DNA from: a virus
IMG/VR virus record: IMGVR_UViG_3300032322_002893
Location: 1 to 45,659 of that record
Reading direction: 5' to 3' (one strand)
Length of the DNA: 45,659 nt
Shown here in pieces: positions 1,194 to 36,668 of this stretch. The notes beneath the pieces are model-generated. The model was not told where the DNA came from, searched no databases, and was given only the letters and a program-made list of their open reading frames with translations. The position numbers and the translations under genes were made by a program. The first letter of the stretch is position 1. Each line of letters opens with the position of its first letter.

Positions 1194-3014
1194 TTACGAA
1201 TTTAATAACTTATCCAATTCTTTTTCGATTTCACCTAAAGAATCTTGTCCTTGGTTAAGTTCAAGGTAAGTATCACCTTTGAAAATGTTATTTTCTACTA
1301 AAATATTCATTCTATCATCTTGTCCCTCAGGTGTCACTCCAGCAGGTGCAGTAATCTCGCCTTCAGGTTGAGGTTCAGGTGCTGGTGGTATAGTTGGTTC
1401 TTCCGTTCCCGCGAATGCACCACCTAACTCAGGTGCCGCAGCTGCGGTTGGAGTAGCTCCGCTCGATTGAGAATACAACTTATCGATAGTATCAAATAGT
1501 CCGGTTTTACTTATAACTGTTGGTGTTTGTTTGAGTTCTTCACCGATTGCCCTTTCCAACCTTTGTTGCATCAAATCTACTCTGATTTCTTCATCAGACC
1601 AGCCAAATATATGTTTTTTTGCCCATGTGCTTGATGTTGGCTGAATTCCATTTCCTGGGTCTAAAACCAAGTCTTTATACAAAAGAACTTTCTCTTTCCA
1701 AACATCTATCTTTAATAAATCTGCTTGTGTTGAAGGATTAGTTAGTCCAAGTGTAAAATTAGAAATCTCATCTTCAAACCCCAAAAGAAACAAATGAACA
1801 ATTGCTATCTTGTTCAATTCCTGAATCATACTTTTTTGGATTCTATTGATAGTTCTTGCAAAACGAATGTCTTGGAGTGATAGATTTTTACCGTCACCAA
1901 CTACTTGCTCAAATCCTAAGAACGCCTTCGGAACACGAAGTGCTGTCAGAAGTTTTTTCTGAATATATTCAATATCGGCAATTTCTGATAGGTTTTGTGC
2001 ACCTGCCAAAGTTTCAATTGGACTTGGAGCTGCAGGGTCTCTCACGGGAACAAAATAATCTTGGTCCACTGCCATTTGATTGAACCTTAAATCTACGTTA
2101 CCCGTTTTGGAGTCAACTACTTGTTGTCTTTTAAATTTATCTGCAACACGATTTACATACGCTTCGACATCATTGTCGTCCATATTTCCTACAAAAATCT
2201 TAAAAATTCTTCTTTCAGGTGCTCTTGATGTTCTATAAATCATCATCGCATCCTCCGATAGAAGTAATTGTTTCCAAATTCTTCTAGCCTTTTCTAACAT
2301 GGATGTTCCGTAAGGGAGTTTCCTATCATCACCAAGTAATCTGAAGTGACCTACTTCCCACGTTTGAAATGTCATATTTTTAGATTTCCATTCAAAAGTT
2401 AAAGCTTTCTTTGCTTCAGCCTTTCCTAAATTAACCGCATTTTTATCAGTAACCCCAATTTCATGTCTTTCAATTTCAATATTTGGTAGTTGTTGACATC
2501 CTACAATACCTTTTTCTGGGTCTAATTTAAGATAAATAAAATTATCACCGAACTTACAAGTATTTCTTGTCCACATCGGTAAGTTTGTGTTGATATCTAA
2601 CGTGTTATTAAACAAATCCGCTAAAACCGCCTTTATTCTTTTTGATTCAGAATAAATTTGTAACATAAATCCATCTTCATTAACCGTAGTAGATTCCTCG
2701 GCATATATGTCTAAAGCTGCAGATATTTCTGGAGTATACTCCATAGACTCATAGTCATACGTGGCTGAAAGTCTTGAAGGTTCGTAAAATATTGCTTGAG
2801 TATAAAGATTGTTTTCAACTTTAGCCCATTGATTTGCAATATAATAAGTTTGTTGAGCCTGTAATTTTTCTCTTTCGTATTCTCCTCTATCTTGTGTTCT
2901 TAATAATTCTTTTTTGTCGAATTTAAAAGTTGGGTAATCTTGACCCAAAAGAGAATTTGGACCAAAAGCCTTACCTAATCTTTGCCAAATCGTCAGATTG
3001 TTATTTTCCGCCAT
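1194..3014 (-). CDS. Portal protein, T4 gp20-like
   Basis: This 606-residue protein forms the dodecameric ring at the head vertex through which DNA is packaged and ejected. The recognisable part is the T4-type portal core at about residues 55-480, including YEPSRLSATYDYESMEYTPE followed by ISAALDIYAEEST, the segment PYGTSMLEKARRIWKQLLLSEDAMMIYR, and the LRVPKAFLGFE region. The last 100 residues form a Pro/Ala/Glu/Gly-rich tail (about 515-565) not found in T4 gp20 (524 aa), which explains the extra length. It lies 40 bp downstream of the terminase gene on the same strand; in T4, genes 18 and 19 sit between 17 and 20. A TATTTAT box lies 30 nt upstream. The ATG start fits the usual N-terminus of the family. 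Confidence 0.93.
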   Translation of the reverse strand: MAENNNLTIWQRLGKAFGPNSLLGQDYPTFKFDKKELLRTQDRGEYEREKLQAQQTYYIANQWAKVENNLYTQAIFYEPSRLSATYDYESMEYTPEISAALDIYAEESTTVNEDGFMLQIYSESKRIKAVLADLFNNTLDINTNLPMWTRNTCKFGDNFIYLKLDPEKGIVGCQQLPNIEIERHEIGVTDKNAVNLGKAEAKKALTFEWKSKNMTFQTWEVGHFRLLGDDRKLPYGTSMLEKARRIWKQLLLSEDAMMIYRTSRAPERRIFKIFVGNMDDNDVEAYVNRVADKFKRQQVVDSKTGNVDLRFNQMAVDQDYFVPVRDPAAPSPIETLAGAQNLSEIADIEYIQKKLLTALRVPKAFLGFEQVVGDGKNLSLQDIRFARTINRIQKSMIQELNKIAIVHLFLLGFEDEISNFTLGLTNPSTQADLLKIDVWKEKVLLYKDLVLDPGNGIQPTSSTWAKKHIFGWSDEEIRVDLMQQRLERAIGEELKQTPTVISKTGLFDTIDKLYSQSSGATPTAAAAPELGGAFAGTEEPTIPPAPEPQPEGEITAPAGVTPEGQDDRMNILVENNIFKGDTYLELNQGQDSLGEIEKELDKLLNS

Positions 3015-3044
3015 TTTACAATTTTAGTTTTACCTATTGATAAT

Positions 3045-3051
3045 ATAAATA
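3045..3051 (-). promoter_or_regulatory. TATTTAT motif, candidate late promoter
   Basis: Lies 30 nt before the portal ATG, in the 40-bp gap after the terminase stop codon, so the portal could be transcribed separately. Confidence 0.4.
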
Positions 3052-3054
3052 GTT

Positions 3055-4812
3055 CTAATTACTAAACAACCATCTATATTTCTCGTAGTCATCTCTCGAT
3101 GGTCCTTGGTTTGGAAAATGTTGTCTTTTTTGGTCTGTTTGAGGCATCATAGGATTAAAAAATTGTGATGAGTTTTTATTCTCATTTATCGAAGTTGCCC
3201 AAGAATCAATCATTGCTTTTGTGTGATTCAGATTTTTTGTAAGCTTTTGAAAAGATTTTTCTGCTACGTATGTTGCCATAGATATACCCATAATACAATC
3301 ATCATGATGTCCTTTTTGATGGTCAGGTCTTCCATTGATATAAACGAATGTATTCATTTCATTATATAACCTATGAGACCTTACTTTAAACCCATGTCGA
3401 ACATTTTCTTCAAATGATGCAATGATTTGAACTCTTTTACTATTGAAATTTATACCAGGAATTTTTTCGTTAATTTTGGGGTCCCATTTCCATTTGTTTG
3501 CAGTATCTACTGTATCTACATATAATCCTTTGTAGTTAAGTTCCTGTAGTTTTCTTGCAGTTGCCACACCCATTCCACCTGTTAAATCAATGACACAAAA
3601 AGCGTCGTACATTGTCCCCCACTTATAAGCAATTTCAGCAACAACATCTGGTGGTACTTTAGCAACATACTCCAAAACTTGCTCGTTTTCATCAAAATCA
3701 ATAATCTCGATACAAGAAAAATCTTCTGAATCTCCTCTTGATACATCTACACCCATAATATATTTGTGTCCGACTATAGGTTCTTTCCATATCCATAGAG
3801 CCCCACCCATGAGTTTAGCACCTGGTTCTTGAAGTGTGTTTTGTGCAATATTTTGAAGTATTTCGGATTCAAAGACGTTGTCGCCTGAACCCAAAAAGTT
3901 ACACTCTAATTCCTGAGCAACTTTTCTTCTATCATACTTTAATTTTTTTACCATTCCCTCAAACCACGAAGAACAAGGTTTATATCCTTGTTTAATGTAT
4001 TCTGTGACGACAGAATGGTCACGTTCATAAGGATTTGCAACAGAAAGACTGATTACCGCATCCGTTGAATATTCTTCTTTGTTCAATAAAAAATGAACCA
4101 AATCATTTGTTTTGACCATGTACAAATCTTTTGTATACCTTGGGTCACGATACCAAAACATCTCAGATATTTTGAAATCGTTCATACTTCTCAAAGCTTG
4201 GTCGTATATCTCATAGTAAATCGGGTCATACCCATTCGGTGTAGAAACAACAATAACTTTACCACCCGTAGAAAGTGATGCCATACATGCTGACCAAAAA
4301 TCACCATCAGCATCTATGAACGCAGCTTCATCAAAAATAAGAATTGTTGGGGTATAACCCCTCAAAGCATCTTTAGACGTTGCCACAGCTTTAACTTCAC
4401 AATCATTTGTAAGTTTGAAATGTCTTTGAGAATTTTTTTCTTGTGAAAAACCAACACCAACCCAATTAGGCCACTGTTCTGTAAACGACCTAATCTTGTT
4501 AGCCATTTCCATCGAAGTGTCCAACTTGTTTGCAATTATAAGAACCTTTTCAGGTTTTTGTTTTTTTGCAAAAACTAGTTTTTTTGACGCCCAAGCAGCA
4601 GTAACTGTAGAAACACCTGCCTGTCTATATTTGAGGGCGATGTTTTCGTTAAAATTTTCGTAGTCTTCTATTAATGAAACTTGGTCAGGAAACAAATCTA
4701 AAGGAACATACTTAGAAACCGTGTTATCGTAGGTTTGTAAGTATGTCCTTAATGCGTATGGTGTATTTCTAATACATTTAGTAACCTCGATAATTAATTG
4801 TTCTTTGGTCAC
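3055..4812 (-). CDS. Terminase large subunit, T4 gp17-like
   Basis: The 585-residue packaging motor has an N-terminal ATPase and a C-terminal RNase H-fold nuclease. The Walker A region is the deviant type found in many phage terminases, K-Y-R-Q-A-G-V-S-T (residues 61-69), with the lysine at the front. Walker B is ILIFDEAAF with D161 and E162, followed by a coupling motif VVSTPNG near 196-202. The nuclease domain shows GVDVSRGDSEDFS (about 350) with the first metal-binding Asp, DLTGGMG (about 405) and HHDDCIMGIS near 510. The start is GTG at 4810-4812, because no nearby in-frame ATG exists. It lies 9 bp after the preceding gene in the morphogenesis operon and works with the portal to fill the prohead. 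Confidence 0.95.
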   Translation of the reverse strand: MTKEQLIIEVTKCIRNTPYALRTYLQTYDNTVSKYVPLDLFPDQVSLIEDYENFNENIALKYRQAGVSTVTAAWASKKLVFAKKQKPEKVLIIANKLDTSMEMANKIRSFTEQWPNWVGVGFSQEKNSQRHFKLTNDCEVKAVATSKDALRGYTPTILIFDEAAFIDADGDFWSACMASLSTGGKVIVVSTPNGYDPIYYEIYDQALRSMNDFKISEMFWYRDPRYTKDLYMVKTNDLVHFLLNKEEYSTDAVISLSVANPYERDHSVVTEYIKQGYKPCSSWFEGMVKKLKYDRRKVAQELECNFLGSGDNVFESEILQNIAQNTLQEPGAKLMGGALWIWKEPIVGHKYIMGVDVSRGDSEDFSCIEIIDFDENEQVLEYVAKVPPDVVAEIAYKWGTMYDAFCVIDLTGGMGVATARKLQELNYKGLYVDTVDTANKWKWDPKINEKIPGINFNSKRVQIIASFEENVRHGFKVRSHRLYNEMNTFVYINGRPDHQKGHHDDCIMGISMATYVAEKSFQKLTKNLNHTKAMIDSWATSINENKNSSQFFNPMMPQTDQKRQHFPNQGPSRDDYEKYRWLFSN

Positions 4813-6943: not shown

Positions 6944-7328
6944 ATACAACCTTTTTTTCAAATTCGAGAATTAAATCATTCTCATATAATTTATCTTTGA
7001 TGTCTTTTTCAGTTTCTCCAAAACGAAAAACCAATCTTTTTTTTGGTGTTTCATTTTCTTTTTCCCAAGCCAAAGCAACGACATCATCCATTGCATCAAC
7101 CATCGAAAAATAATCGGAGTTCTGAATTAACTCCAATTTTAACTCGGTGTTTTTCAGAACTCCTACTCTTTTAATATATTTCAACTCTGGTGGATGCGGA
7201 TATGAATTTGATGGTTTACTTTCCCAAGATTCTCCCCAAACATCCGTAGTATCAGAAAAAATGAATTCGTACAAATTATCTCCTTTATAATCAGGACCAA
7301 GTCCATTTATAAAAATTAAATAACTCAT
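6933..7328 (-). CDS. Hypothetical protein
   Basis: A 131-residue mixed alpha/beta protein starting MSYLIFINGLGPDYKGDN, rich in aromatic residues, with no family I can name. Its ATG overlaps the stop codon of the upstream gene (ATGA, 7325-7328) and its stop overlaps the next start, so three genes are translationally coupled. A structural role in the neck or baseplate is possible from the context only. Confidence 0.7.
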   Translation of the reverse strand: MSYLIFINGLGPDYKGDNLYEFIFSDTTDVWGESWESKPSNSYPHPPELKYIKRVGVLKNTELKLELIQNSDYFSMVDAMDDVVALAWEKENETPKKRLVFRFGETEKDIKDKLYENDLILEFEKKVVYES

Positions 7329-8548
7329 ATAACAAATCCCTCAGGAGAAATTTTCACTTGTCCTGATTTATTTTCAAATACTAAGTTTTTCTTATTGGTT
7401 TTACCTAAGAAAATATATGATTTATTTTCTTGTAAAAATTTTTTAGAAGAAAGTTCTTGTTCTATTGTTTCACTCAAGGTTTCAATTGATTTAACTTTCT
7501 TGGCAAACTCAGATTTTCTTTTAATTTCTTCATTTACCATCTTTTCTTTTTTATATTTCTTTTCAGAATCAGACATTTCAAAATATTTTGAAATAACCTT
7601 GTCAATTTTTGATTCACTAAAGATACTATCTAAGATTGTATCATGAATAGATGATTCACCCATTTCTTGGTCAACCGCCACGTCCATGTCAGCTTGTACA
7701 TCTTCTACTTCAGAATCACTTGTAATGTCTTCTGAACCCATATCTTCCATATCCATTTCATCATTTTCCTCATCACTTTCGAATTTAGAAAGAACGTCTT
7801 CTTTATCTTCATCACTAAGTTGATTTAAATCAACTGCAGAAATTACCATGTTCAAAACATATTTGATATTTTCTGAGGTCAAACCTTTTTCTTGTTCATA
7901 CTCTCTGATTTTCTGCGTTAACTTTCCTGTCAGTTTTTGAATTGACTTGAAAGTAACAATATCAGCGTTTTTATCCCCTTGACCCATGTCATCTACCGGC
8001 ATTTCTTCTGCACCCATGTCATCTACCGGCATTTCTTCTGCAGACATTTCTGAATCATCTGCAGGAGGTAAAGCTTCCGGTGAATCTGGAAGTTGTGGTT
8101 CAGGAACTGCAGGTGGTTCTGCTGGTGGTGCTGATGGCGCGTCTATCATAAGTTCATCTGTTGCCGGTTGTGGTGTTTTTAAAACAAACTTTTTTTGTTC
8201 ACCAAATAAACTAATTTCTTCGTCTTGTCCGTTTAATCTGTTTGATTCTTTGATGATTAAGTTCAACCTCTTCAATGCTTGAGAGTATGAGTTATAATAT
8301 TTTCTATTTTTCATAGGTTCGATATAATCCACCTCCGATTCTGAAATATTTTTCTTAATCACATATCCCATTTTTTCTTTGACAATTTGATACTCGCTAC
8401 CATCAGATACATTTATCGAATATTCTGTGGTACTAAGAGTATTTGTTTCTGATTTAGGAGTTTCATTATATCTGGCAATCTCCATGATTCTGTTCAACTT
8501 CTCTTGACCAGTTAATTTTTCACTTCCTAACGGTTTTAATTTTCCCAT
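7325..8548 (-). CDS. Acidic/Pro-rich protein, possible scaffold or prohead-core protein
   Basis: A 407-residue protein with three parts: an N-terminal charged region (1-120), a Pro/Ala/Asp/Glu/Met-rich middle (about 130-300) containing the duplicated unit MPVDDMGAEE, and a C-terminal helical Lys/Glu region ending in a small beta-like segment (FLGKTNKKNLVFE). The composition is like prohead scaffolding proteins of T4-like phages, but there is no motif that proves it. A 30-bp exact tandem duplication encodes the repeated decapeptide. It is near the head of the operon; the next gene upstream is a short ORF. Confidence 0.68.
   Translation of the reverse strand: MGKLKPLGSEKLTGQEKLNRIMEIARYNETPKSETNTLSTTEYSINVSDGSEYQIVKEKMGYVIKKNISESEVDYIEPMKNRKYYNSYSQALKRLNLIIKESNRLNGQDEEISLFGEQKKFVLKTPQPATDELMIDAPSAPPAEPPAVPEPQLPDSPEALPPADDSEMSAEEMPVDDMGAEEMPVDDMGQGDKNADIVTFKSIQKLTGKLTQKIREYEQEKGLTSENIKYVLNMVISAVDLNQLSDEDKEDVLSKFESDEENDEMDMEDMGSEDITSDSEVEDVQADMDVAVDQEMGESSIHDTILDSIFSESKIDKVISKYFEMSDSEKKYKKEKMVNEEIKRKSEFAKKVKSIETLSETIEQELSSKKFLQENKSYIFLGKTNKKNLVFENKSGQVKISPEGFVI
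7982..8041. repeat. 30-bp tandem duplication (2 copies)
   Basis: Two adjacent identical 30-bp units (7982-8011 and 8012-8041) inside the acidic protein gene. Being in frame, they add or remove ten residues, so length variation between related phages is likely. Confidence 0.9.
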
Positions 8549-8828: not shown

Positions 8829-10454
8829 TTATGCAAGATTGGATGAACCTAACTTAGATTTGGATAATACCATATCACTTATGTTGGATACGGATGAAAC
8901 AATACTCCTTAATTTGGGTTCATATTCACCCGATGCATATCTATATCCGTTAACATTTACAAAGTTTCTAAGTAAATCACCTGCTCTTTTTCCACCTGTC
9001 AAATATCTTCTAACCATCAAATCATAATACGCACAAACACCTTCCTGAACTGTTGAAAAATATTTGTTTTTTCCTGAGTCAGTATTACCAACATTGAATG
9101 GATTTTTAGTCCTTCTTGGTCTAACCGTTTGATTTTTTGACAGTCCTCCCTCTAATGCTAATTGTGCTAATGCCAATTCAGGTGGTACATATCCTTGTGA
9201 AAAGTATCTTTTGGAACATTCGGCCATCATTTGTCCGTCGACGCCGGCATTAGGATTTCGTTTATCAATAAAGTTCTGACAAATTTCGGCATAAAGTTTG
9301 AAAGATTCAGGGTCGTTCATGTCTAAATAAGTAAAATTACCATCCTTACCAAATTCACCAGTGAATTTATTTAACTTCGAATCTGAAAATTTGTTTAAAA
9401 CTAACAAAGCTAGAAGGTGTTTTAAATCTTCAGTTTTCATTACACCATCTTTTGAAAGTCCCGAAGACTCTTGAAATTTTTCAATTGCCACCTTTGTTTC
9501 GGAGCCAAGTTTACCATCAATCCCCCATTTAGGTAATTTGAAATTCAGAAATTCAAGTCCGTCTTGAATCATTCTCACGTCATCATCAAATGGAATTTTC
9601 ATTCCTGGTGTGTATTCAAAAGTTTTTTTAGTGTCAGCTAATTCTTTCAATTTTTTCAAAAACGATGAATTCTCAACGGAGTCAATTATTTCTTTGGTTT
9701 CCTTTTTGGTATCTTGTTCATTCAAATGTTGTTCGACAGATAATTCTTTATCTTTGAGTTGATTGATTTTATCGAAAAGATTTTCGATGTGTTTTGACCT
9801 CCTTAAAAACTTGAATACCAAGTTTTCGTAAGACAACTCACCACCTTTTTCTAATCCACACTTTCTATATTCTTTGAGTTTATCTTTGATGGTTTCTAAT
9901 TTTTCAACACCATCAGTTTCAGAATCTTTAATTGCCGTTTCTATTTTTTCAACCCAATTATCTATTTTATTTACCAAAACACTCTTATCAATTTTTTTGA
10001 AATCCTTTTTTGGTATATTAATCCACTCGTTGTTCGCAACAGAATAAACTGCACTACTTACATGTGATTCTTCCATATCTTGTGCATATAATTCAACATC
10101 ATATCCTAATATTTTTATATCATGTGAATCGTTGAATATTCTTTTTTTCAAATCATAAAGTTCTTTATATGTTTCTGATTCTTTCTCGTATTGTTGTAAG
10201 TCTATTATGACGTGTAAATCAAAGTCCGAGAAATTAGACCAATTGTAGTTTGCCAATGACCCTGTTAAGACAACATCTTCGACCATAACATCATCACCCA
10301 AATAATCAATAAATTCTTCGGCAATTCGTTCTAAAGCCTTTCTCACCTTAGGTTTCATTTTTGCATCCTTGGGTTCATCGTAGTTATCCCATATCTTTGG
10401 ATTCAATGTTTCTTGGAGAGAGAAACTTTTCAATATTTCTGTAAATTTTCCCAT
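8829..10454 (-). CDS. Nucleotidyltransferase / peptidoglycan-binding / glucosaminidase-like fusion
   Basis: A 541-residue multidomain protein. Residues 40-165 show a minimal nucleotidyltransferase core: LTGSLANYNWSNFSDFDLHV, with the Gly-Ser pair (65-66) and D77/D79. A coiled region (170-265) follows. Residues about 275-345 resemble a PG_binding_1 domain (DDVRMIQDGLEFL...GIDGKLGSETKVAIEKFQ). Residues about 390-540 look like a lysozyme-fold glucosaminidase (PPELALAQLALEGG, NPFNVGNT, TVQEGVCAYYDLMVRRYL). The cell-wall half suggests a tail-borne or internal hydrolase for entry. What the nucleotidyltransferase does on the same chain is unknown. A TATTTAT box sits 5 nt before the ATG. Residues 13-15 (L-Q-E) would fit a T4-type prohead protease site. 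Confidence 0.8.
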   Translation of the reverse strand: MGKFTEILKSFSLQETLNPKIWDNYDEPKDAKMKPKVRKALERIAEEFIDYLGDDVMVEDVVLTGSLANYNWSNFSDFDLHVIIDLQQYEKESETYKELYDLKKRIFNDSHDIKILGYDVELYAQDMEESHVSSAVYSVANNEWINIPKKDFKKIDKSVLVNKIDNWVEKIETAIKDSETDGVEKLETIKDKLKEYRKCGLEKGGELSYENLVFKFLRRSKHIENLFDKINQLKDKELSVEQHLNEQDTKKETKEIIDSVENSSFLKKLKELADTKKTFEYTPGMKIPFDDDVRMIQDGLEFLNFKLPKWGIDGKLGSETKVAIEKFQESSGLSKDGVMKTEDLKHLLALLVLNKFSDSKLNKFTGEFGKDGNFTYLDMNDPESFKLYAEICQNFIDKRNPNAGVDGQMMAECSKRYFSQGYVPPELALAQLALEGGLSKNQTVRPRRTKNPFNVGNTDSGKNKYFSTVQEGVCAYYDLMVRRYLTGGKRAGDLLRNFVNVNGYRYASGEYEPKLRSIVSSVSNISDMVLSKSKLGSSNLA

Positions 10455-11352: not shown

Positions 11353-11772
11353 TTAGATGATGTTAATCTTATTTTTTCTTTTTTCAGTTTCTTTATTGTA
11401 TTTTGGAATATAAACAGTCAAAATACCATCAGCAATCGTCGCTTCAATTGTTGAAGAATTATATGAGTTGTTGAGTTTGACCCTTTTGCTTATAGTCTTT
11501 TGTTTTTCAACTCCATTAACTTTATATGTTCTTACACCTTCCAATACTAATTCAGAACCTTCAACAGTAATTTCTAAATTTTCTTTGTTAAACCCTGGTA
11601 CTTCAAAATGAAGATACGCTCCATCTTTTACGTGATTTATTTCATAATCCTCATCTTTTACATACTCTGTCTGCTCGTCAACTGGAACTAAACGATAGGT
11701 ACTTGAGTAATAAGTTGATGGAGAGTTGAAGAACTTGTCAAACATTTTGTTAAAATCATTTCCGTAAATCAT
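11353..11772 (-). CDS. Small heat-shock protein, Hsp20/alpha-crystallin family
   Basis: I chose the ATG at 11770-11772 (MIYGNDFNKMFDKFF; 139 aa), because the longer frame starts at a TTG far upstream and adds unlikely sequence. The alpha-crystallin domain spans about residues 40-130: GAYLHFEVPGFNKENLEI, VEGSELVLEG, and the conserved end ATIADGILTVYIPK (A-x-x-x-x-G-x-L-x-V-x-I-P). A C-terminal I-x-I/V-like ending (INII) may mediate oligomer contacts. Hsp20 proteins hold unfolded proteins without ATP. Cyanophages and other T4-like phages encode them. Its neighbour across the intergenic region is the ClpC-like unfoldase, so the two probably share a proteostasis role. Confidence 0.92.
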   Translation of the reverse strand: MIYGNDFNKMFDKFFNSPSTYYSSTYRLVPVDEQTEYVKDEDYEINHVKDGAYLHFEVPGFNKENLEITVEGSELVLEGVRTYKVNGVEKQKTISKRVKLNNSYNSSTIEATIADGILTVYIPKYNKETEKRKNKINII

Positions 11773-11980
11773 AGTTTTTATTTTTTTAAATTTATTTATT
11801 TTAACTAATATATTCAAACAACATACCAGCTCAGTCAATATGACATAATGTCTTATTAATTTTTTATTTGATGACAAGTTGTCTGTTTCATATTTTTCAT
11901 CCTGTTTATTTGTCAATAAATTTGTTTGTGTCCGATAATTGATGGATATTTGTAAAAACTAAACATAAAATCTAAAAATT

Positions 11981-13987
11981 ATGAATGAATTAATGGATGA
12001 TGATGATAAGCAAACGAGTAAGAAAAAGAATACAGATAGTTCTACTCCCGTTTTAGATAATTTCAGTCGAGACTTAATTAAACTCGCTGAAATGGGTAAA
12101 CTCGACCCAGTTATTGGTCGAGAAAAAGAAATTTTAAGGATTGCTCAAATTCTTTCGAGGAGAAAGAAAAATAATCCTGTAATAATCGGAGAACCCGGTT
12201 GTGGTAAAACCGCGATTGTCGAAGGTTTGGCTATCAAAATTTATAATGGTGAGTGTCCAAGAAATTTGGTTGATAAAAGGATTGTTGCTTTGGATTTAAC
12301 TTCAGTGGTTGCTGGTACAAAGTATCGTGGACAATTTGAAGAAAGGATGAAAGTCATCATGGAAGAATTACAGCAAAACCCTAACATTATTGTATTCATT
12401 GATGAAATACATACATTGGTTGGTTCAGGAAATGCTGCAGGGTCAATGGACGGTTCAAATATATTCAAACCTGCATTAGCTCGTGGTGAACTCCAATGTA
12501 TCGGAGCAACAACTTCTGATGAATTCCGTAAATCATTTGAGAAAGATGGTGCTTTGGAAAGAAGATTTCAAAAAGTTGTGGTTGACTCTGCAACAGTCGC
12601 TGAAACAATAGAAATATTGAAAAACGTTCGTGATAAGTATGAAACTTTCCATAAAGTAACCTACACCGACGAGATAATCGAAACTTGTGTAAAGCTGGCC
12701 GACAAGTATATCACAGATAGGGAGTTTCCTGACAAAGCTTTTGATATTTTAGATGAAGTTGGTGCTAGAATGCAAACTGAACTCAAGGTTCCTGAAGTTA
12801 TTGATGATTTGAAGAAGAAAGCTGCGGAACTCAGACAAATGAAGATGGACGTTGTAAAAAAACAAAACTACGAACAAGCGGCAGAACTGAGGGATAAAGA
12901 AAAGAAACTTATAACAAAACTTGAAAGTGAAAAGAAGAAGTTTGAAGAACAACTCCAAAAGGAAAAACAACCAATCACTTTAGAAGATGTCTATGATGTT
13001 GTTTCCACAATAACCAAAATTCCTGTTTCTAAAATGTCTGTGGACGATGTTAAAACCCTTATAAATCTGGATAAAGAACTTGTGGGTAAAGTTATTGGTC
13101 AAGACGATGCTGTTCTTAAGATTGTTAAATCAATCAAAAGAAACAGACTTGGAATCAAAGACCCGAATAGACCTATTGGAACATTTGTATTCTTGGGCTC
13201 TACCGGTGTTGGTAAGACCTATTTGGCAAAACAACTTGCTAAAGAAATGTTTGGTAGTGAAGAATCTTTGATTAGGGTTGATATGAGTGAATATCAAGAA
13301 AAACATACAATTTCGAAGTTGGTAGGTGCTCCTCCAGGCTATGTTGGATATGATGAGGGTGGACAACTCACTGAGAAGGTGAAAAATAAACCTTACTCAG
13401 TAATACTTTTTGATGAGGTAGAAAAGGCTCATAAAGACATTTTCTCAATCCTACTTCAAATCATGGATGATGGTTATGTTACCGATAGTTTGGGACGTAA
13501 GATTAATTTCAAAAATACTCTTATTATTCTTACTTCAAATTTAGGTGTAAAGAAATTCCAAGAGTTTGGTGCAGGTATCGGATTTGGAACCAACTCATAT
13601 TCAAACGAGGAAGCGAAGAAACAAATCTTGATGAAAGAAATGAAGAATTTCTTCTCACCAGAGTTTCTCAACAGAATAGATGATACGATTATGTTCAACA
13701 CACTATCTCAGGAAGATATTAAGAAGATAACCCGCATAGAGTTAGACAAATTGGTCAATAGATTGTTGGAAATGAAATACAAAATCAAATATAACGATTC
13801 AGTGGTCGAGTATATTGCAAAAATTGGTTACGATAGTACCTATGGCGCTCGTCCAATGAAAAGGGCAATTCAGGATAAAATAGAAGACTTTTTATCTGAA
13901 GAAGTTCTTCTCGGTAAACTTAAAGAGGACACACAATATGTTCTCAAAGTAGAAGAAGAAACAGTTAAGATTACTAAGGGTAAGTAG
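11981..13987 (+). CDS. ClpC/ClpA-like AAA+ unfoldase without N-domain
   Basis: A 668-residue double-AAA+ protein. AAA1 has Walker A GEPGCGKT (70-77) and Walker [15 protein letters not shown] middle region with [20 protein letters not shown] is a UVR-type motif as in ClpC. AAA2 has Walker A GSTGVGKT (about 406-413) and Walker [12 protein letters not shown]. The tripeptide IGF (about 533-535, in AGIGFGTNS) sits where ClpA/ClpC carry the ClpP-docking loop, so it should be able to dock on ClpP. The usual Clp_N adaptor domain (about 140 aa) is missing; only an acidic/Lys leader precedes AAA1. A phage ClpP is encoded at 36685, and a tmRNA at 16990. Upstream there is only an imperfect TAnnTTTG-like box. 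Confidence 0.95.
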
Positions 13988-13988
13988 A

Positions 13989-14017
13989 AAAAGGAGGATT
14001 TAATCCTCCTTTTTTTA
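13989..14017 (+). terminator. Intrinsic terminator after the ClpC-like gene
   Basis: 10-bp stem AAAGGAGGAT / ATCCTCCTTT with a 3-nt loop followed by T7. The T-run merges into the TATTTAT box of the next gene. Confidence 0.9.
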
Positions 14018-14024
14018 TATTTAT
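14018..14024 (+). promoter_or_regulatory. TATTTAT motif, candidate late promoter
   Basis: Lies 6 nt before the ATG of the HExxH protein and directly after the preceding terminator, so this gene needs its own promoter. Confidence 0.55.
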
Positions 14025-14030
14025 CATAGA

Positions 14031-14681
14031 ATGAAAACAAACCTCAGAAAAATTATAAGAGAAGAACTTACGGTTTTGTCAAACTTTGATAAACTCATGA
14101 ATTCTTTCAGAAAAGATTTTCCTCAAGAACTCCAATCTAAAGTTGATAGCATATCGTCATATGTTAAAGAATATGTCAGAGAGAATGAATTCAATATAAA
14201 ATTCCTGAATAGCTGCAGGACGGGATTTAAAGGTGTCAGGACTAATCAGTTTATAATAATTTGTTCTCCAATGCAAATTGAAAAAATTGGTGATTTTCTT
14301 TATACCATTTTTCATGAAATAAGACACGAAGAACAAATAAGTAAACTAAAAATTAATAACCCTTTAATAGGACAGTTGGAAGATTTCGAAAAATTATTCG
14401 AGGATTATTGGAAATTAGAGTTGGATGCAGATGAATTTGCTAAGAAAAAAATATCAGAACTTGTTTTAAAATTTGGTATACCAATCGGCACTGCTAAGCA
14501 AAATTTCAGTCTTTCCCCATATGTTGAAAACTACCCTAGTACTTCCAAAATGGTGAAAAACTATATGAAAACGATTGTTGATGATATTAAGAATATGAGA
14601 AAATCAGGAATGGAATACAATGATATTGCCGACCACCCTGTTGTCAAAAATCACTTGGAAAAATTAGAAGATTTCTTTTAA
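14031..14681 (+). CDS. Putative zinc metallopeptidase (HExxH)
   Basis: A 216-residue protein with the zincin motif H-E-I-R-H (H95, E96, H99) in a hydrophobic helix (FLYTIFHEIRHEEQ). A later helix ELDADEFAKKK (about 133-143) could give the third ligand, Glu or Asp, as in ImmA/IrrE-like and other gluzincin-type peptidases. The N-terminus MKTNLRKIIREELTV is a short basic amphipathic peptide of a kind seen on several genes in this window. Its I-x-E step (residues 9-11) fits a T4-type prohead protease site. Expression from a TATTTAT box, insulated by a terminator, suggests a late, possibly packaged protease. The substrate is unknown. It overlaps the convergent peptidase gene by 4 bp. Confidence 0.72.
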   Translation: MKTNLRKIIREELTVLSNFDKLMNSFRKDFPQELQSKVDSISSYVKEYVRENEFNIKFLNSCRTGFKGVRTNQFIIICSPMQIEKIGDFLYTIFHEIRHEEQISKLKINNPLIGQLEDFEKLFEDYWKLELDADEFAKKKISELVLKFGIPIGTAKQNFSLSPYVENYPSTSKMVKNYMKTIVDDIKNMRKSGMEYNDIADHPVVKNHLEKLEDFF

Positions 14682-15520
14682 TCCCAAAGAGTGTAATTTC
14701 TCGAAGTATCTTTTCTCTTTTTGTAATGTAATTTGTAGCCCAAAGATTCTATCATTTTTTTACCAATTTTGATTCCATTGTATACGTCTTCTATTACAAC
14801 GTATTCTTTTTTTGTATGATAGTTGTAATATCCTATTGAAAAATTTATACAAGAAAAATCGAAAGATTTTCTTAGAGCATAAACGTCAGTATATGGATGA
14901 ACCATATATTGTATAAAGTTAGGATTCATAGATTCTGTCAGAACCTTATCACAAGCCTTAAAGAAATCAGAATGCCTGTCAAATAGAACTTGTCCAAAAC
15001 ATTTTTCTGTGACCATCCAATTTTCAGGTGCATCAAACTGAATTGCATAACCTACGTTAGCAAAAAAACCTGTGTTAGCTTTTAATGAACCATGACATCC
15101 TGTTTCTTCAGAGACGAAAAATGCCGCTTTCAGATTCGGTAATTCTTTCAATAGAGTGAGACAAGCAAATACACCACACTTATCGTCTCCACCAATTCCT
15201 GTTGGTTTACCATTACCATCTAAAGCAAATAGAGCACTTTTCAATTCATCTTGTGCATTTGGAAGTTTTTCTTCTTGAATAAAAATATCATTTATTTCAT
15301 GAACTGTGTCAGTGTGAGAAACTACACATGGGTAGAAAAAATTTTCATCCTTAACAATATTATCTGTTTTTGTTGCATATACATTTTTATAAGCATCGAC
15401 AAAAAATTCTATATTGTTTTCAGTCAACCAAGTCGTTAAGTATTCGACCATTCTATCTTCTTTATAAGTTTTGGTGGGAACACTCAAAACTTCTTTAAGA
15501 AGTTGTAAATTATAATCCAT
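14678..15520 (-). CDS. M20/M28-type zinc peptidase (PepT-like)
   Basis: I chose the ATG at 15518-15520 (MDYNLQLLKEVLSVPTKTYK; 280 aa) over a GTG five codons upstream, because the TAnnTTTG box overlaps that region. Metal-binding motifs of di-zinc aminopeptidases are present: SHTDTVHE (His and Asp of site 1), GIGGDDKCG (bridging Asp), FVSEETGCHGS (catalytic Glu pair), FDAP (Asp), and a late His in YNYHTKKEYV. The family removes N-terminal residues from short peptides; PepT acts on tripeptides. In a phage it could recycle peptides made by Clp proteolysis, an idea based on context only. The length is below the usual 400 aa, so the dimerisation domain is reduced. Confidence 0.85.
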   Translation of the reverse strand: MDYNLQLLKEVLSVPTKTYKEDRMVEYLTTWLTENNIEFFVDAYKNVYATKTDNIVKDENFFYPCVVSHTDTVHEINDIFIQEEKLPNAQDELKSALFALDGNGKPTGIGGDDKCGVFACLTLLKELPNLKAAFFVSEETGCHGSLKANTGFFANVGYAIQFDAPENWMVTEKCFGQVLFDRHSDFFKACDKVLTESMNPNFIQYMVHPYTDVYALRKSFDFSCINFSIGYYNYHTKKEYVVIEDVYNGIKIGKKMIESLGYKLHYKKRKDTSRNYTLWD

Positions 15521-15534
15521 ATCTAATATTTTCA

Positions 15535-15542
15535 CAAAGATA
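15535..15542 (-). promoter_or_regulatory. TAnnTTTG promoter -7 box (TATCTTTG)
   Basis: Lies 14 nt before the peptidase ATG. Confidence 0.5.
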
Positions 15543-15554
15543 TGAAAAAAATTT

Positions 15555-16919
15555 TTATTTTTCGTCTAAAATGTTGAAAAGTTCTGGTTGATTTAAAAAT
15601 AAATTGAAATGTTGTTCGTCGAACTCATGTATCTTGTTACGGTCGTATTTGCCGTCTTTGTCCTTTGTGAGAATTTGAACTTGTATCTTACCTGTATTGT
15701 TATCAATTCCAAGAACCTGAAAAAATAAATTGGGGTCTTTAGGTGTTTTATGGACTTTACGAAAATCGTACTTGTTTTTGATTTTCCAATATAACTCATA
15801 AATTCTTTTATATTCTTCTCCTTCTTCCTCCATTTTTTCGATAATTGTATCCAAAGTATTTCCCCATTTTCTATTCAATTGTTCCATATCTAACAACCTA
15901 CTGTTTTCGTAATCATATTGGTTATCATACCAACCACCCAAATTACCTTTTTTATTTTCAAAATAATCTTCGAGTAATTGTTTTAAAGTTGCTCGACTAT
16001 CACCCACTTCAGAATACATTTTCAAAATTTCTGAAATTGGTAATTTCACTATTTCGCGTACTAAATCTACATCCAATCCAACACTTTTGAAATACTCAAT
16101 AAGTTCTTCATTTACCTGTTCGTAAGCCGTATCATTCATTTGCTCATTTAGCGCATCTGTCCACTCAGATATAATGTCATCCATGTATCTAGCAAACTCA
16201 TCATATAATATTCTGAAAATTTGTCGAAAGTAATCTTCTGACTTCTCATATTTAATATTGGGCATCAAGAAAGAAGAAATGTATTCTAATTTTTTTTCAT
16301 TTTCTTCATCAAAATGCCAGAAAGGACCATAACCTTCTTTCATATCATCGTAGTCTGAATCATAACTTCTAAATTCCCACCTACGACTAGACACCCAATT
16401 GTAAAAAGAAACGTCATCGTCATTCAACCCGATTTTTTCTAAAAATTCATCGAAGTCATTGAAGTCCAAAGAAATTTTTGGTTCTTCATCCTCATTATTA
16501 ACCACACGAAGTATCAAGGGGTCGGCATTTTCTAATGTCCTTGCATTAATTTCATTTCTCATGAAACTTCTAAGTTGATTAAAAAAGTTTGACCCTAAAA
16601 GTTTTTTGGTCATTTGTTCATCTACTCCGAAATAGTCTTTCAAATTTTTCTGAACATCATCTAATGAAACTTCATTCTCGTTAGAATCTAAAATATCGTT
16701 GTTATTTAGTCTTCTAAATGACTCTACTCTACCATTGATTTTATCTATGAAAATATAGGTAACAGAACCTTTTGTATTAAAGTTAGAGTATGCTTTATAA
16801 TAGTTACCACAGAAATAATGGTTTTTATCATAATGACAAAGAGCATCTAATGTTAAAGGTTTAATTATAGTTAAATCATCCTCGTCTAATATCACTTTAA
16901 TTTGGTCTTCCATACTCAT
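15555..16919 (-). CDS. Hypothetical protein related to the 23478 gene product
   Basis: A 454-residue acidic protein. Its N-terminal 110 residues (DLTIIKPLTLDALCHYDKNH, YFCGNYYKAYSNF, VTYIFIDKINGRVESFR) align by eye with the segment around KYGSNTKWCTAA in the 23478-24986 protein: same order of a basic/aromatic Cys motif, a Tyr-rich strand and an I-I-D/N-K turn. That module is widespread in phage proteins, and I know of no proven function. The rest is helical and very rich in Glu, Asp, Tyr and Asn. The TATTTAT box 6 nt upstream implies late expression. The start MSMED is the first of two close ATG codons. Confidence 0.7.
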   Translation of the reverse strand: MSMEDQIKVILDEDDLTIIKPLTLDALCHYDKNHYFCGNYYKAYSNFNTKGSVTYIFIDKINGRVESFRRLNNNDILDSNENEVSLDDVQKNLKDYFGVDEQMTKKLLGSNFFNQLRSFMRNEINARTLENADPLILRVVNNEDEEPKISLDFNDFDEFLEKIGLNDDDVSFYNWVSSRRWEFRSYDSDYDDMKEGYGPFWHFDEENEKKLEYISSFLMPNIKYEKSEDYFRQIFRILYDEFARYMDDIISEWTDALNEQMNDTAYEQVNEELIEYFKSVGLDVDLVREIVKLPISEILKMYSEVGDSRATLKQLLEDYFENKKGNLGGWYDNQYDYENSRLLDMEQLNRKWGNTLDTIIEKMEEEGEEYKRIYELYWKIKNKYDFRKVHKTPKDPNLFFQVLGIDNNTGKIQVQILTKDKDGKYDRNKIHEFDEQHFNLFLNQPELFNILDEK

Positions 16920-16925
16920 AATGAT

Positions 16926-16932
16926 ATAAATA
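16926..16932 (-). promoter_or_regulatory. TATTTAT motif, candidate late promoter
   Basis: Lies 6 nt before the ATG of the 454-aa gene; divergent from the tmRNA promoter region. Confidence 0.5.
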
Positions 16933-16962
16933 TTTTTGTTTGGTAAATAATATATTTATTCT

Positions 16963-16970
16963 TACCTTTG
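16963..16970 (+). promoter_or_regulatory. TAnnTTTG promoter -7 box of the tmRNA (TACCTTTG)
   Basis: Ends 19 nt before the mature tmRNA 5' end, leaving a short leader for RNase P to remove. A TATTTAT sequence at 16953-16959 lies just upstream, so both promoter types may act. Confidence 0.5.
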
Positions 16971-16989
16971 TAAGGTTCTTTGAAAATAT

Positions 16990-17379
16990 GGGGGTGAAAG
17001 GTATCGATTTCAGGTATCAGGGATAAGTCGCAAGTAGTCGGATGTCACATACGACTTTAATCATCGGTGGTAAAGATAACAGGCAATACTTTTGCAAAAA
17101 TGGCTGCTCTTGGTTTGACCAGAGAAGCTGTTGTTGTTGCTGCTTAATTGTAGAGAACAACTACGAGTCGGTTAGGACATATACTCAGGAACAGGAGTCC
17201 GTTATGGGGGTCACAGGTCAGAGCTCCCTTAAATAATTCTGAGACCAAGTTATTTGTAGATTTGTTTCTCACTTACATCAAATCTAATATTTCGGAACAT
17301 TTAGAACAAATGTTGAACTAAACTTGTAGTGATTTATTGTTGAACAGGAAAGACCAGCGTTCGAGTCGCTGCACCTCCA
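16990..17379 (+). ncRNA. ssrA: Transfer-messenger RNA (tmRNA)
   Basis: The ends form the tRNA-like domain: GGGGGTG (16990-16996) pairs with CACCTCC (17372-17378) as a 7-bp acceptor with one G-U. A T-arm CAGCG-TTCGAGT-CGCTG precedes the 3' strand. CCA is not encoded. An internal frame ending AKMAALGLTREAVVVAA then TAA (stop 17145-17147) is the best candidate for the tag peptide, because it finishes in a hydrophobic run plus Ala-Ala, as degradation tags do. The frame is open from 17061; the resume codon is not identifiable by eye. tmRNA with SmpB frees stalled ribosomes and tags the product for ClpXP/ClpAP. No smpB gene lies in this window, so host SmpB would be needed. A terminator follows at once. 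Confidence 0.9.
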
Positions 17380-17387
17380 CTTGACTT

Positions 17388-17416
17388 AAAACCCCCACTT
17401 CGCTGGGGTTTTTTTA
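17388..17416 (+). terminator. Intrinsic terminator of the tmRNA
   Basis: CCCCA / TGGGG stem with a CTTCGC loop, flanked by A-rich and T7 tracts, starting 9 nt after the tmRNA 3' end. Confidence 0.85.
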
Positions 17417-17465: not shown

Positions 17466-18167
17466 ATGAAAATTAAAGATTTATTGACAATAATAATCCC
17501 ATCTAAAAATGAAGAAGAACTTATTTTATTAACTCTTGGATTATTAAATAAACAAAAGAACATTCACGGAACAAGAATTATTATTTCAGATAGTTCAGAC
17601 GACAACACAAGAAATTTAATCGAAGTTAATAAATTTGATAATTTAATAATTGAGATTATTGAAGGGGGATTTCCATCAAAAGCAAGAAACAATGGTGCTT
17701 TGATTTCTGAAACACCTTATATTCTGTTTTTGGATGCAGATATGTTTCTGACAGATACTAATACAATAGAAAAATCTCTCAAGTTTATTTCAGAAAACTC
17801 TCTTTCATTGGTAACAACCAAATTCAGAACTCAGGGAAACTATTTTTATGTGTTTCCTATTTTTGAATTTTTTAGAAATTGGTTTTCACATCATTCAGTT
17901 TGTGCTGTAGGAGGATTCATGCTTTTCAACAGACAGACCTTCTTAGAATTAGGGGGATTTGACCCAACTTATTTATTTGCTGAAGATTATGCCTTAAGTA
18001 ATAAAATAAACCATAAAGATTTTGGTGTTGTAGATACAAAAATATATACAACAGACAGGAGATTCAAAAAGAAAGGACTTTTTTATATGCTAAAAATGAT
18101 GGTATTGTCCGTTTTGAACTCCGATAATCCAAAATTTTTTCAACATCATCACAACTATTGGAAATGA
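17466..18167 (+). CDS. Family 2 (GT-A) glycosyltransferase
   Basis: A 233-residue GT2 enzyme. The N-terminal strand LTIIIPSKNEEE is the nucleotide-binding start. LFLDADMFL (about 88-96) holds the D-x-D-like metal site, and GGFDPTYLFAEDYALS (about 160-175) has the E-D acceptor-site motif. It is shorter than typical GT2 proteins and has no membrane segment, so it probably transfers one sugar in the cytoplasm. The acceptor could be a surface glycan precursor, DNA or protein. It overlaps the phosphoesterase gene by 4 bp (ATGA), so the two are coupled. Confidence 0.88.
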   Translation: MKIKDLLTIIIPSKNEEELILLTLGLLNKQKNIHGTRIIISDSSDDNTRNLIEVNKFDNLIIEIIEGGFPSKARNNGALISETPYILFLDADMFLTDTNTIEKSLKFISENSLSLVTTKFRTQGNYFYVFPIFEFFRNWFSHHSVCAVGGFMLFNRQTFLELGGFDPTYLFAEDYALSNKINHKDFGVVDTKIYTTDRRFKKKGLFYMLKMMVLSVLNSDNPKFFQHHHNYWK

Positions 18168-18955
18168 AAAAATATCAATATGTAATAGTTTCAGATTTAC
18201 ATTTGGGGACCAAAAATAGTAAATGCAATGAGTTTTTAGATTTTTTGGAAAATCATCCTTGTCATACTTTGATATTGAACGGAGACATTGTTGATGGGTG
18301 GGCTTTGAACCGAGGTTCAAAGTGGAAAAAGAAACATACCAAAGTAATATCCAAGTTATTAACTATGTCTAATGATACTAACATAATTTGGATAAGGGGT
18401 AATCACGATGAATTTCTGACTGAGTTTATAGGAGGTTCTTTTGGTAATATTCAATTCAAAGAAAATTATATTCTAAAAACTCAGGAATGGAAAACGAATG
18501 ATTTATTTATCGATAGATATTTTTATGTCTTCCACGGAGATGTCATCGATATTTTTATTACAAAATATAAGTGGTTATCCAAAATAGGCGCAATAGGTTA
18601 TGATTTTGCTCTTTGGTTAAATAGAGTATACAACAAATACAGAACATGGAGAGGTCTGTCCTACCAATCTATTTCACAAAAGATAAAGGAGGGTGTGAAA
18701 ACAGCAACCCTTTATGTTAATGATTTTGAAAACACTGCCATCCTGATGGCAGAGAAAGCTGGTTGTGAAGGTGTTATTTGCGGTCACATTCATCAGCCTT
18801 CGGATAGAGTAATTAATAATAAAAGATATTTAAATTCAGGAGATTGGGTTGAGAACATGACCGCTCTTGTTGTTGACAATAATGGACAAATAGAACTTAA
18901 AAAATATGAAAATAATAGAACTACTATTAAATTGGAACACGGGGAAGAAATTTAA
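18164..18955 (+). CDS. Metallophosphoesterase, LpxH-like
   Basis: I chose the ATG at 18164-18166, which overlaps the upstream TGA (263 aa); a TTG two codons earlier is less likely. The calcineurin-type motifs are in order: SDLHLGTKN (D-x-H), LNGDIVDGW (G-D-x-x-D), RGNHDEFL (G-N-H-D), FHGDVID (H-G-D) and GHIHQP (G-H-x-H). The layout resembles UDP-2,3-diacylglucosamine pyrophosphatase LpxH and related Bacteroidota enzymes. Coupled translation with a glycosyltransferase suggests a small pathway acting on a sugar nucleotide or lipid-linked sugar, possibly altering the host surface. The substrate cannot be read from the sequence. Confidence 0.85.
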   Translation: MKKYQYVIVSDLHLGTKNSKCNEFLDFLENHPCHTLILNGDIVDGWALNRGSKWKKKHTKVISKLLTMSNDTNIIWIRGNHDEFLTEFIGGSFGNIQFKENYILKTQEWKTNDLFIDRYFYVFHGDVIDIFITKYKWLSKIGAIGYDFALWLNRVYNKYRTWRGLSYQSISQKIKEGVKTATLYVNDFENTAILMAEKAGCEGVICGHIHQPSDRVINNKRYLNSGDWVENMTALVVDNNGQIELKKYENNRTTIKLEHGEEI

Positions 18956-32179: not shown

Positions 32180-32292
32180 TACCTCAGGCGGGAATCGAAC
32201 CCGCACGAACTTTTTCGGTTCACAGGATTTTACGGTGCGACGAGTTGAAGCTCCCGTAAGTCCAGCGTGTCTACCTATTCCACCACCAAGGT
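32180..32292 (-). tRNA. tRNA-Leu(UAA) with a 26-nt anticodon-loop insertion
   Basis: Class II tRNA: acceptor ACCTTGG/CTGAGGT, D-arm GTG/CAC with GGTAGA, long variable arm GAAC-CGAAAAA-GTTC, T-arm GCGGG-TTCGATT-CCCGC. The anticodon stem CTGGA/TCCTG encloses 33 nt instead of 7. Removing 26 nt (plus-strand 32231-32256) leaves CTTAAAA, a normal UAA loop. The insert with its flanks folds as TTACGG/CCGTAA plus a small GAG-CTTCAA-CTC hairpin. It is far too short for a group I intron. The stem also has a U-U mismatch (28-42). The molecule is either interrupted, non-functional or a modified decoy. Confidence 0.85.
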
Positions 32293-36619: not shown

Positions 36620-36660
36620 AAGATTATTGACGATATTTTGGTTTTGTTGGTAATATTTTA

Positions 36661-36668
36661 TATTTTTG
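36661..36668 (+). promoter_or_regulatory. TAnnTTTG promoter -7 box (TATTTTTG)
   Basis: Lies 16 nt before the clpP ATG. Confidence 0.55.

Follow-up and report, generated by a model that had tools for sequence, protein, structure and literature searches.

A tmRNA with an unusually long tag linked to ClpC-like unfoldase and M20-type peptidase genes in a clade of very large phages

We analyzed a protein-quality-control locus in the IMG/VR virus record IMGVR_UViG_3300032322_002893, a contig fragment taken whole (45,659 bases; hereafter the window). The first-pass annotation had placed five proteostasis elements, from a small heat-shock protein to a transfer-messenger RNA (tmRNA), within 6 kb of this sequence, with clpP at 36685, and every part was confirmed, the HExxH protein by its conserved motifs and the others using Pfam, PHROG, Rfam, and ARAGORN. 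Phage genes for a portal protein and a large terminase, which the first-pass annotation did not mention, lie at 1194-4812. The refuting outcome named in that annotation, a lack of conservation in relatives, did not occur: ClpC, M20, and tmRNA form a stable unit in this clade, often accompanied by ClpP. The main features are as follows, with the strand in brackets.

11353-11772 (-): Hsp20 small heat-shock protein, optional (Pfam HSP20, 1.2e-12)
11981-13987 (+): ClpC-like double-ring AAA+ unfoldase with a UVR-type middle domain and an IGF docking loop (phrog_4871, 3.9e-239)
14031-14681 (+): HExxH zincin-like protein, optional (HExxH and ELDAD motifs)
14678-15535 (-): short M20-type metallopeptidase, possible start ATG 15520 (phrog_4191, 1.4e-35)
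15555-16919 (-): conserved gene for a 454-amino-acid protein of unassigned family in the interval between M20 and tmRNA, absent from the first-pass annotation
16990-17382 (+): tmRNA with the 21-amino-acid tag GNTFAKMAALGLTREAVVVAA and a G3.U70 acceptor stem (RF00023, full length)
36685-37362 (+): clpP, serine peptidase of the housekeeping type (Pfam, 2.5e-56), 22.7 kb from clpC

To describe the locus beyond the window, we scanned IMG/VR for ClpC and kept the best 80 loci (at least 80 exist), in which ClpC is 67-86% identical to that of the window and which hold 77 distinct ClpC proteins. A set of 50 related records comprised 48 mostly fragmentary IMG/VR relatives and the megaphages LR745206 (L141) and LR756502 (L142). 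Relatives with the block reach 321 kb, which is jumbo-phage size, and the block-bearing viruses are very large phages whose hosts are probably Bacteroidota.

The M20 gene adjoined clpC in 76 of the 80 ClpC-selected loci, and the other four contigs end within 119 nucleotides past clpC. It lay on the strand opposite to clpC in 75 of these 76 loci and on the same strand in L081. A tmRNA was detected in 65 loci, always on the clpC strand and 2.0-5.7 kb downstream, while the remaining 15 reach a contig edge before the place of the tmRNA: 14 stop before the M20 match or less than 1,107 nucleotides past it, this being the shortest observed distance from M20 to tmRNA, and L072 stops 102 nucleotides past the match to the 454-amino-acid gene. 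The count of 65 was obtained using nhmmer with a model of the clade and includes two partial tmRNAs (L048 and L073); ARAGORN called tmRNAs in 13 loci, and Infernal with RF00023 placed them above the cut-off in 40 of the 50 related records.

The linkage was also seen in the reverse direction. Two degenerate patterns made from the tags found, and blind to ClpC, drew at least 171 stretches, of which 168/171 contained a tmRNA by nhmmer and the remaining 3/171 were set aside. M20 was found in 113/113 of the tag-selected loci with at least 2.6 kb upstream, and clpC in 81/82 of those with at least 4.5 kb upstream; after dropping 49 loci with an already-seen identical tmRNA core, the counts were 80/80 and 57/58, respectively. 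A sister ClpC clade, represented by 80 loci for which the ClpC of LR756502 (642 kb) served as query, gave a tmRNA in one locus (L528) and an M20 match in one (L484), with 63 of the 80 reaching at least 4.5 kb past clpC. The two-way co-occurrence and this sister-clade contrast rule out chance clustering.

The ClpC-like protein of the window has two AAA+ modules with Walker A, Walker B, and pore loops, together with a short UVR-type middle domain, and its closest solved relative is Bacillus subtilis ClpC (5e-219). Among 83 ClpC sequences (the window, the 80 loci, and the two megaphages), nearly all retain what we take to be the Walker A/B, pore-loop, and arginine-finger motifs. The [I/L/V]G[F/L] loop of Clp ATPases docks ClpP, and its GF was present in 83/83 sequences, as IGF in 61 and VGF in 22. 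The Clp_N domain, which binds adaptors, had no Pfam match in the window protein, and in loci with a complete 5' end the ClpC match is preceded by 42 open codons at most, too few for an N-terminal domain. We therefore term the protein ClpC-like and do not count it as a full ClpC; in NCBIfam no ClpC model came up for it, and ClpB ranked first, under the cut-off of that model.

Each of the 50 related records contained exactly one protein with a Clp-type D2-small domain, which leaves ClpC as the sole phage-encoded partner of this kind detected for ClpP. ClpP itself was found in 24 of these records, and in 22 of the 25 IMG/VR records that extend more than 25 kb past clpC, where it lies on the clpC strand in each case, 11.7-29.6 kb downstream. 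It is thus common, and less fixed than ClpC, M20, and tmRNA. The docking loop is kept even in records that yielded no phage ClpP (such as L079, L054, and L070), so docking of the phage ClpC to host ClpP is possible. As a further possibility, ClpP could be a head-maturation protease unrelated to the rest of the set, as its top PHROG matches are such proteases (phrog_94, 126.8 bits). On NCBIfam, however, housekeeping ClpP models scored as high as 228 bits and the head-maturation models 65-75, all under their curated cut-offs, and the closest PDB structures are true ClpPs, which makes this assignment extremely improbable despite the PHROG ranking. Both the window ClpP and the variants listed for 28 aligned sequences contain Ser-His-Asp motifs. 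Just 5' of clpP, the window carries a carbamoyltransferase gene (34946-36619, +; Pfam Carbam_trans; PHROG Nol-like). The two megaphages, of 635-642 kb, encode ClpC and SmpB with two (L141) and three (L142) ClpP matches, and neither gave a tmRNA above the cut-off with the standard (RF00023) or two-piece (RF01849) models.

The tmRNA of the window matched RF00023 at 73.3 bits (gathering score 47) over model positions 1-374 and was called by ARAGORN at 16990-17380. In the best register, a 7-bp acceptor stem was present in 40 of 41 tmRNAs of the clade, as was G3.U70, the alanine identity pair, with L067 as the exception. The tag frame of 21 or 22 codons was open in all 65 readable tmRNAs (the window and 64 loci, L073 being cut off); 63 were read with a pattern demanding Gly first, and the other two, L021 and L028, begin with Asp. 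In the 44 distinct tags of 21 codons, G11 and L12 were invariant (44/44; the pattern permitted G or A at position 11 and L, I, V, or M at position 12), K6 was kept in 42, and the terminal Ala in 41. Tag variation was highest at third codon positions (1.22 bits vs. 0.80 and 0.61), and 32% of codon differences were synonymous in frame vs. 20% and 7% in the other frames, counted over all pairs, which are not independent. Based on this third-position and in-frame synonymous variation, the tag varies like coding sequence and seems to be maintained as a peptide.

A different role for the phage tmRNA would be that of a decoy or sensor, titrating host SmpB or reporting stalling with no tagging. The RNA of Mycobacterium phage DS6A offers a parallel, since it has little beyond the tRNA-like domain and, according to the available text of PMC4131195, resembles known tmRNA inhibitors. 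Retention of the tag frame in every readable tmRNA and of G3.U70 in all except one speaks against such a role here, and we consider it very improbable.

The length of the phage tag sets it apart from that of Bacteroidota. Tags of 21-22 amino acids in the phage clade compare with 9-10 amino acids, ending in AA in 43/43, for host tags read from 13 of 15 genomes and from 30 of 40 genomes with a match; this comparison covers Bacteroidota tmRNAs as distinct from those of other published tmRNA phages, and a second, overlapping ARAGORN candidate in host locus L292 (14-amino-acid tag) was excluded from the count. Four of the 43 host tags read GNTQYAMAA and one GNTQLAMAA. When four phage genes were aligned with four host genes, the window tag had GGCAATACT and ATGGCTGC in common with such host tags, and at the host TAA stop the phage frame continues for 12 further codons. 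The phage tag therefore looks like an ancestral host tag lengthened at its C-terminus, the likeness being close for the window type (GNTFAKMAA), whereas tags of the GNVLNKM type match less well.

As a consequence of the longer frame, the host-like MAA is internal in the phage tag, and the new ends vary (VVAA, VVGA, VVTI, VTVA, and LVEVA), whereas the host tags read end in a constant -AA preceded by L, M, F, or Y. This pattern could mean that the 12-amino-acid extension serves only to hide the host degron from ClpXP, in which case the tmRNA would merely free ribosomes, and ClpC, ClpP, and M20 would serve otherwise; the swapping of tag types between near-identical ClpCs fits such shielding too. 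We regard it as unlikely, because it leaves unexplained the two-way linkage of tmRNA to ClpC and M20, which is missing in the sister clade, and because the constancy of the terminal Ala, K6, G11, and L12 among the distinct 21-codon tags goes against it.

In the sister-clade locus L528, the tmRNA (6978-7368, -) encodes a 25-amino-acid tag, GNNSTHIFNQYPLVGNTQTQYAVAA, with a host-like end and an extension at the front. This tmRNA has a ClpP match (8875-9447) and ClpC (from 10001) no more than 5 kb away, and because the three stand close together in a member of the sister clade, linkage of tmRNA, ClpP, and ClpC may have arisen more than once.

The peptidase of the block scored 23.7 bits against Pfam Peptidase_M20, 0.9 under the gathering score of 24.6, and we therefore filed it as M20-type only. 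A profile of 28 chosen M20 relatives matched PepT-type enzymes, and H74, D76, D117/D118, E143/E144, D168, and H240, presumably metal ligands or catalytic residues, were invariant in these 28 sequences. In the profile alignment, the two M20 halves are separated by 56 profile positions vs. 164 residues in PepT 3gb0, so the lid/dimerisation domain may have been lost.

Between M20 and tmRNA lies the gene for the 454-amino-acid protein, which was found by tblastn in 58 of the 80 loci at 23-32% identity. Its product measures 334-616 amino acids in 56 relatives and evolves fast at a fixed position. The structural model was confident (predicted local distance difference test, pLDDT, 89.9), and family and structure searches gave no convincing family, fold, or PDB match. 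Four viral models matched at E <=0.001, none of which has a function assigned by name, and PcfJ-like proteins appear among the weaker hits. A role as an adaptor is only a guess.

The two optional proteins of the block are less constant. Hsp20 has a well-supported alpha-crystallin domain (HSP20, 48.3 bits vs. a cut-off of 20.8) and was found in 16 of the 50 records and, by tblastn, in 25 of the 80 loci. The first-pass annotation probably placed its start too early: the real start is probably the in-frame ATG at 11772, which gives a protein of 139 amino acids, and 14 of 26 aligned rows measure 128-137 amino acids. The HExxH protein, found by tblastn in 30 of the 80 loci, keeps its HExxH and ELDAD motifs in relatives. 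It had no Pfam or PHROG match at 0.001, and at 0.1 none over the Pfam cut-off. Its model (pLDDT 83.6) gave weak fold matches, zincins among the best, to ArdC, IrrE/PprI, BlaR1, and SprT-type proteases, with no Foldseek match at E 0.001 (best Z 5.5, root-mean-square deviation 6.5, 122 aligned). No metallopeptidase matched it in a PDB sequence search. Of the earlier reading of this protein as a peptidase, the motifs stand, while the likeness to zincins is weak and a zincin of this kind need not digest peptides; because some of the zincin matches are regulators or anti-restriction proteins, its place in peptide trimming is doubtful.

We further searched the window for regulatory signals, and those belonging to the block are the following.

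13984-14018 (+): intrinsic terminator directly 3' of clpC, 16-pair stem
16939-16970 (+): Bacteroidota-type promoter (TTTG-N20-TAnnTTTG) of the tmRNA, by pattern
17393-17408 (+): intrinsic terminator after the tmRNA, stem-loop then T run
36637-36668 (+): Bacteroidota-type promoter of clpP, by pattern

The full TTTG-N20-TAnnTTTG pattern occurred 10 times in the window vs. 3.2 expected; we take TAnnTTTG to be the -7 element of this promoter type in Bacteroidota. It stood within 80 nucleotides upstream of 34 of 41 tmRNAs (38 of them distinct) vs. 4.9 expected, and within 100 nucleotides upstream of M20 in 55/66 (8.5 expected), of clpP in 18/23 (2.4), and of the HExxH gene in 6/26 (1.5). Over the same distance, it was not above chance for the 454-amino-acid gene (3/52; 2.5 expected) or Hsp20 (3/23; 2.1).

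These signals also bear on whether the genes work together at all. They may have separate jobs at a shared address, with ClpC and ClpP removing host or virion proteins, M20 acting on other peptides, and the tmRNA independent of both, so that they would be co-inherited without forming one pathway. Mixed strands, separate terminators, and the distance of 22.7 kb to ClpP all fit this account, as do the presence of M20 relatives in many other phages and the proposal, in the available text of PMC7824862, that ClpP and Clp ATPases of jumbo phages act in host targeting or assembly. Yet genes near the block turn over (Hsp20 and HExxH as given above, and g10776 in 7/80 loci by tblastn), whereas ClpC, M20, and tmRNA part in only 1/82 testable tag loci, and one promoter class is common to M20, clpP, and tmRNA. 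On this evidence, we judge separate jobs to be rather unlikely.

Taken together, the gene set, its linkage, the intact motifs, the long tag with its coding-like variation, and the promoter class are consistent with a phage-encoded route of trans-translation and degradation in jumbo phages of Bacteroidota, for which we consider the case evenly balanced. In this route, ribosomes would stall on broken mRNA during infection. The phage tmRNA, charged by the host alanyl-tRNA synthetase via G3.U70, would then append its tag of 21-22 amino acids, delivered by an SmpB that would mostly be the host's and, in some relatives, the phage's own. The 12-codon run-on would bury the C-terminal host degron (-YAMAA or -YALAA) inside the tag, and the tagged chains would thereby escape host ClpXP. 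Phage ClpC, which lacks the adaptor-binding N-domain, would recognize the tag, pull in these chains, and pass them to phage ClpP, or to host ClpP where the phage has none. Finally, the M20 peptidase would cut the released peptides towards amino acids.

A more specific form of this proposal is that the tag acts as a private degron: a host-derived tmRNA would have lost the stop of its tag and gained 12 codons, and its products would thus have left host ClpXP for the phage ClpC, ClpP, and peptidase. We put this forward tentatively and lean somewhat against it, and the same reserve applies to the idea, offered as part of that whole reading, that loss of the N-domain freed the phage ClpC from host adaptors. 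If the private-degron proposal is true, these phages would possess an orthogonal tag-and-protease channel that supplies a genome of at least 300 kb with amino acids from broken proteins of host and phage.

Several observations weigh against a route run by the phage. The first concerns SmpB, which is required for trans-translation. It was not found in the window, which is a fragment, and occurred in only 4 of the 48 IMG/VR relatives, most of them likewise fragments. It was present in both megaphages, in 2 of 16 contigs of at least 150 kb among the matches listed (two of which, L006 and L305, are near duplicates), and next to the tmRNA in 3 of the 108 tag-selected loci that extend 1.5 kb downstream. 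Most members must therefore use host SmpB, or one encoded outside the fragment, and the host presumably also provides ribosomes, EF-Tu, and alanine charging. The suggestion of the first-pass annotation that the set forms a complete, phage-run path is thus not supported, as SmpB is mostly missing and both Hsp20 and the HExxH protein are optional. The SmpB of L009 had its four best matches in Chitinophagaceae, at 55-60% identity.

Other points concern the remaining parts. ClpP was found in 10 of the 16 large contigs and not in 6. In a general survey of 50,697 phage records at E 1e-5, M20 relatives appeared in 357 (identity <60%, mainly Klebsiella and other small phages), so the M20 type is not special to the block; the same survey gave relatives of ClpP in 616 records and of ClpC in 166, the last count possibly including host DNA in contigs assigned to Listeria and other phages, and zero matches to the HExxH protein. 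Locus L419 has a tmRNA and M20 with no ClpC match in 8.5 kb upstream. In the shared promoter class, clpC is scant (17/71 vs. 7.2 expected), and in the window clpC and the tmRNA each have their own terminator. Tag and ClpC are not strictly co-evolving: their distances correlate at Mantel r = 0.46 (reached in 0/2000 permutations; partial r given M20, 0.24), and since the tmRNA and clpC genes are linked, this correlation proves no recognition. Near-identical ClpCs carry different tag types, as the ClpC of L010 differs by 4-5% from those of L012 and L017 and yet is found with another tag type, which suggests exchange of tmRNA genes between phages. Finally, adjacency within one virus clade can reflect plain vertical inheritance.

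Two further features of the window were noted. Directly after the tmRNA (17466-18955, +), a glycosyltransferase 2 gene overlaps a calcineurin-like phosphoesterase gene, and among the ClpC loci this pair was seen only in L002 and L032. A 113-nucleotide tRNA at 32180-32292 (-) was detected by Rfam at 39.7 bits and not listed by ARAGORN; it looks like a tRNA-Leu(UAA) with about 26 extra anticodon-loop bases, possibly an intron-like insert.

Individual parts of the block are already in print for phages. Huge phages carry tmRNA and SmpB, which have been credited with ribosome rescue and with triggering degradation (Al-Shayeb 2020, PMC7162821, in its available text), and the present clade resembles them in its phage-borne tmRNA and in the SmpB of some relatives. 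It differs in linking the tmRNA to ClpC, M20, and often ClpP and in its long tag, the terms "clp" and "protease" having 0 occurrences in the main text of that paper. A tmRNA has been reported in 402 phages, or 2.3% of 18,146, in work that already suggested amino-acid recycling from tagged host proteins (PMC9004378); the tmRNAs of mycobacteriophages and phage G have been treated (PMC4131195), and that of Wildcat is its most expressed lytic gene (PMC7474061). In the available text of these three sources, no dedicated unfoldase/peptidase locus with the tmRNA is described. Jumbo phage Sinorhizobium AP-J-162 combines tmRNA, ClpX, Hsp20, and DnaJ on one phage (PMC11242549); it differs in having ClpX, not ClpC, and in the available text ClpP is mentioned for phage lambda and no linked block is described. 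Jumbo phages with ClpP, ClpA/ClpX, Hsp20, SprT, and ArdC, proposed for host targeting or virion assembly, share their protein types with our loci as far as the available text goes (Iyer 2021, PMC7824862), and unlike the block they come with 0 occurrences of "tmRNA" in the main text.

Compared with the housekeeping system of Bacteroidota, the block shares the tag start GNT.. of some Chitinophagaceae, the kinship of the L009 SmpB, and host-type promoters, while it differs in its tag of 21-22 instead of 9-10 amino acids and in a ClpC without the N-domain that host Bacteroidota ClpC has. With ClpP-like and M20-type proteins widespread among phages, the distinctive feature is the linked set. The earlier remark that no such set was known from a phage agrees with the literature as far as it was available: among the matches listed in the open-access literature, none describes a set of tmRNA, ClpC, M20, and ClpP, and none describes an extended tmRNA tag.

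Phage tmRNAs have been proposed to serve translation upkeep, host-state sensing, or amino-acid recycling (available text of PMC7162821 and PMC9004378). Here the RNA stands with a fixed set of degradation genes across a large virus clade, so four purified parts would suffice to test the idea directly. Should the phage ClpC alone read the long tag, nature would have supplied an orthogonal degron of use in controlling protein degradation, and the clade would exemplify viral rewiring of a core code of quality control. More broadly, the block points to a possible route by which these phages themselves would free stalled ribosomes and recycle broken proteins.

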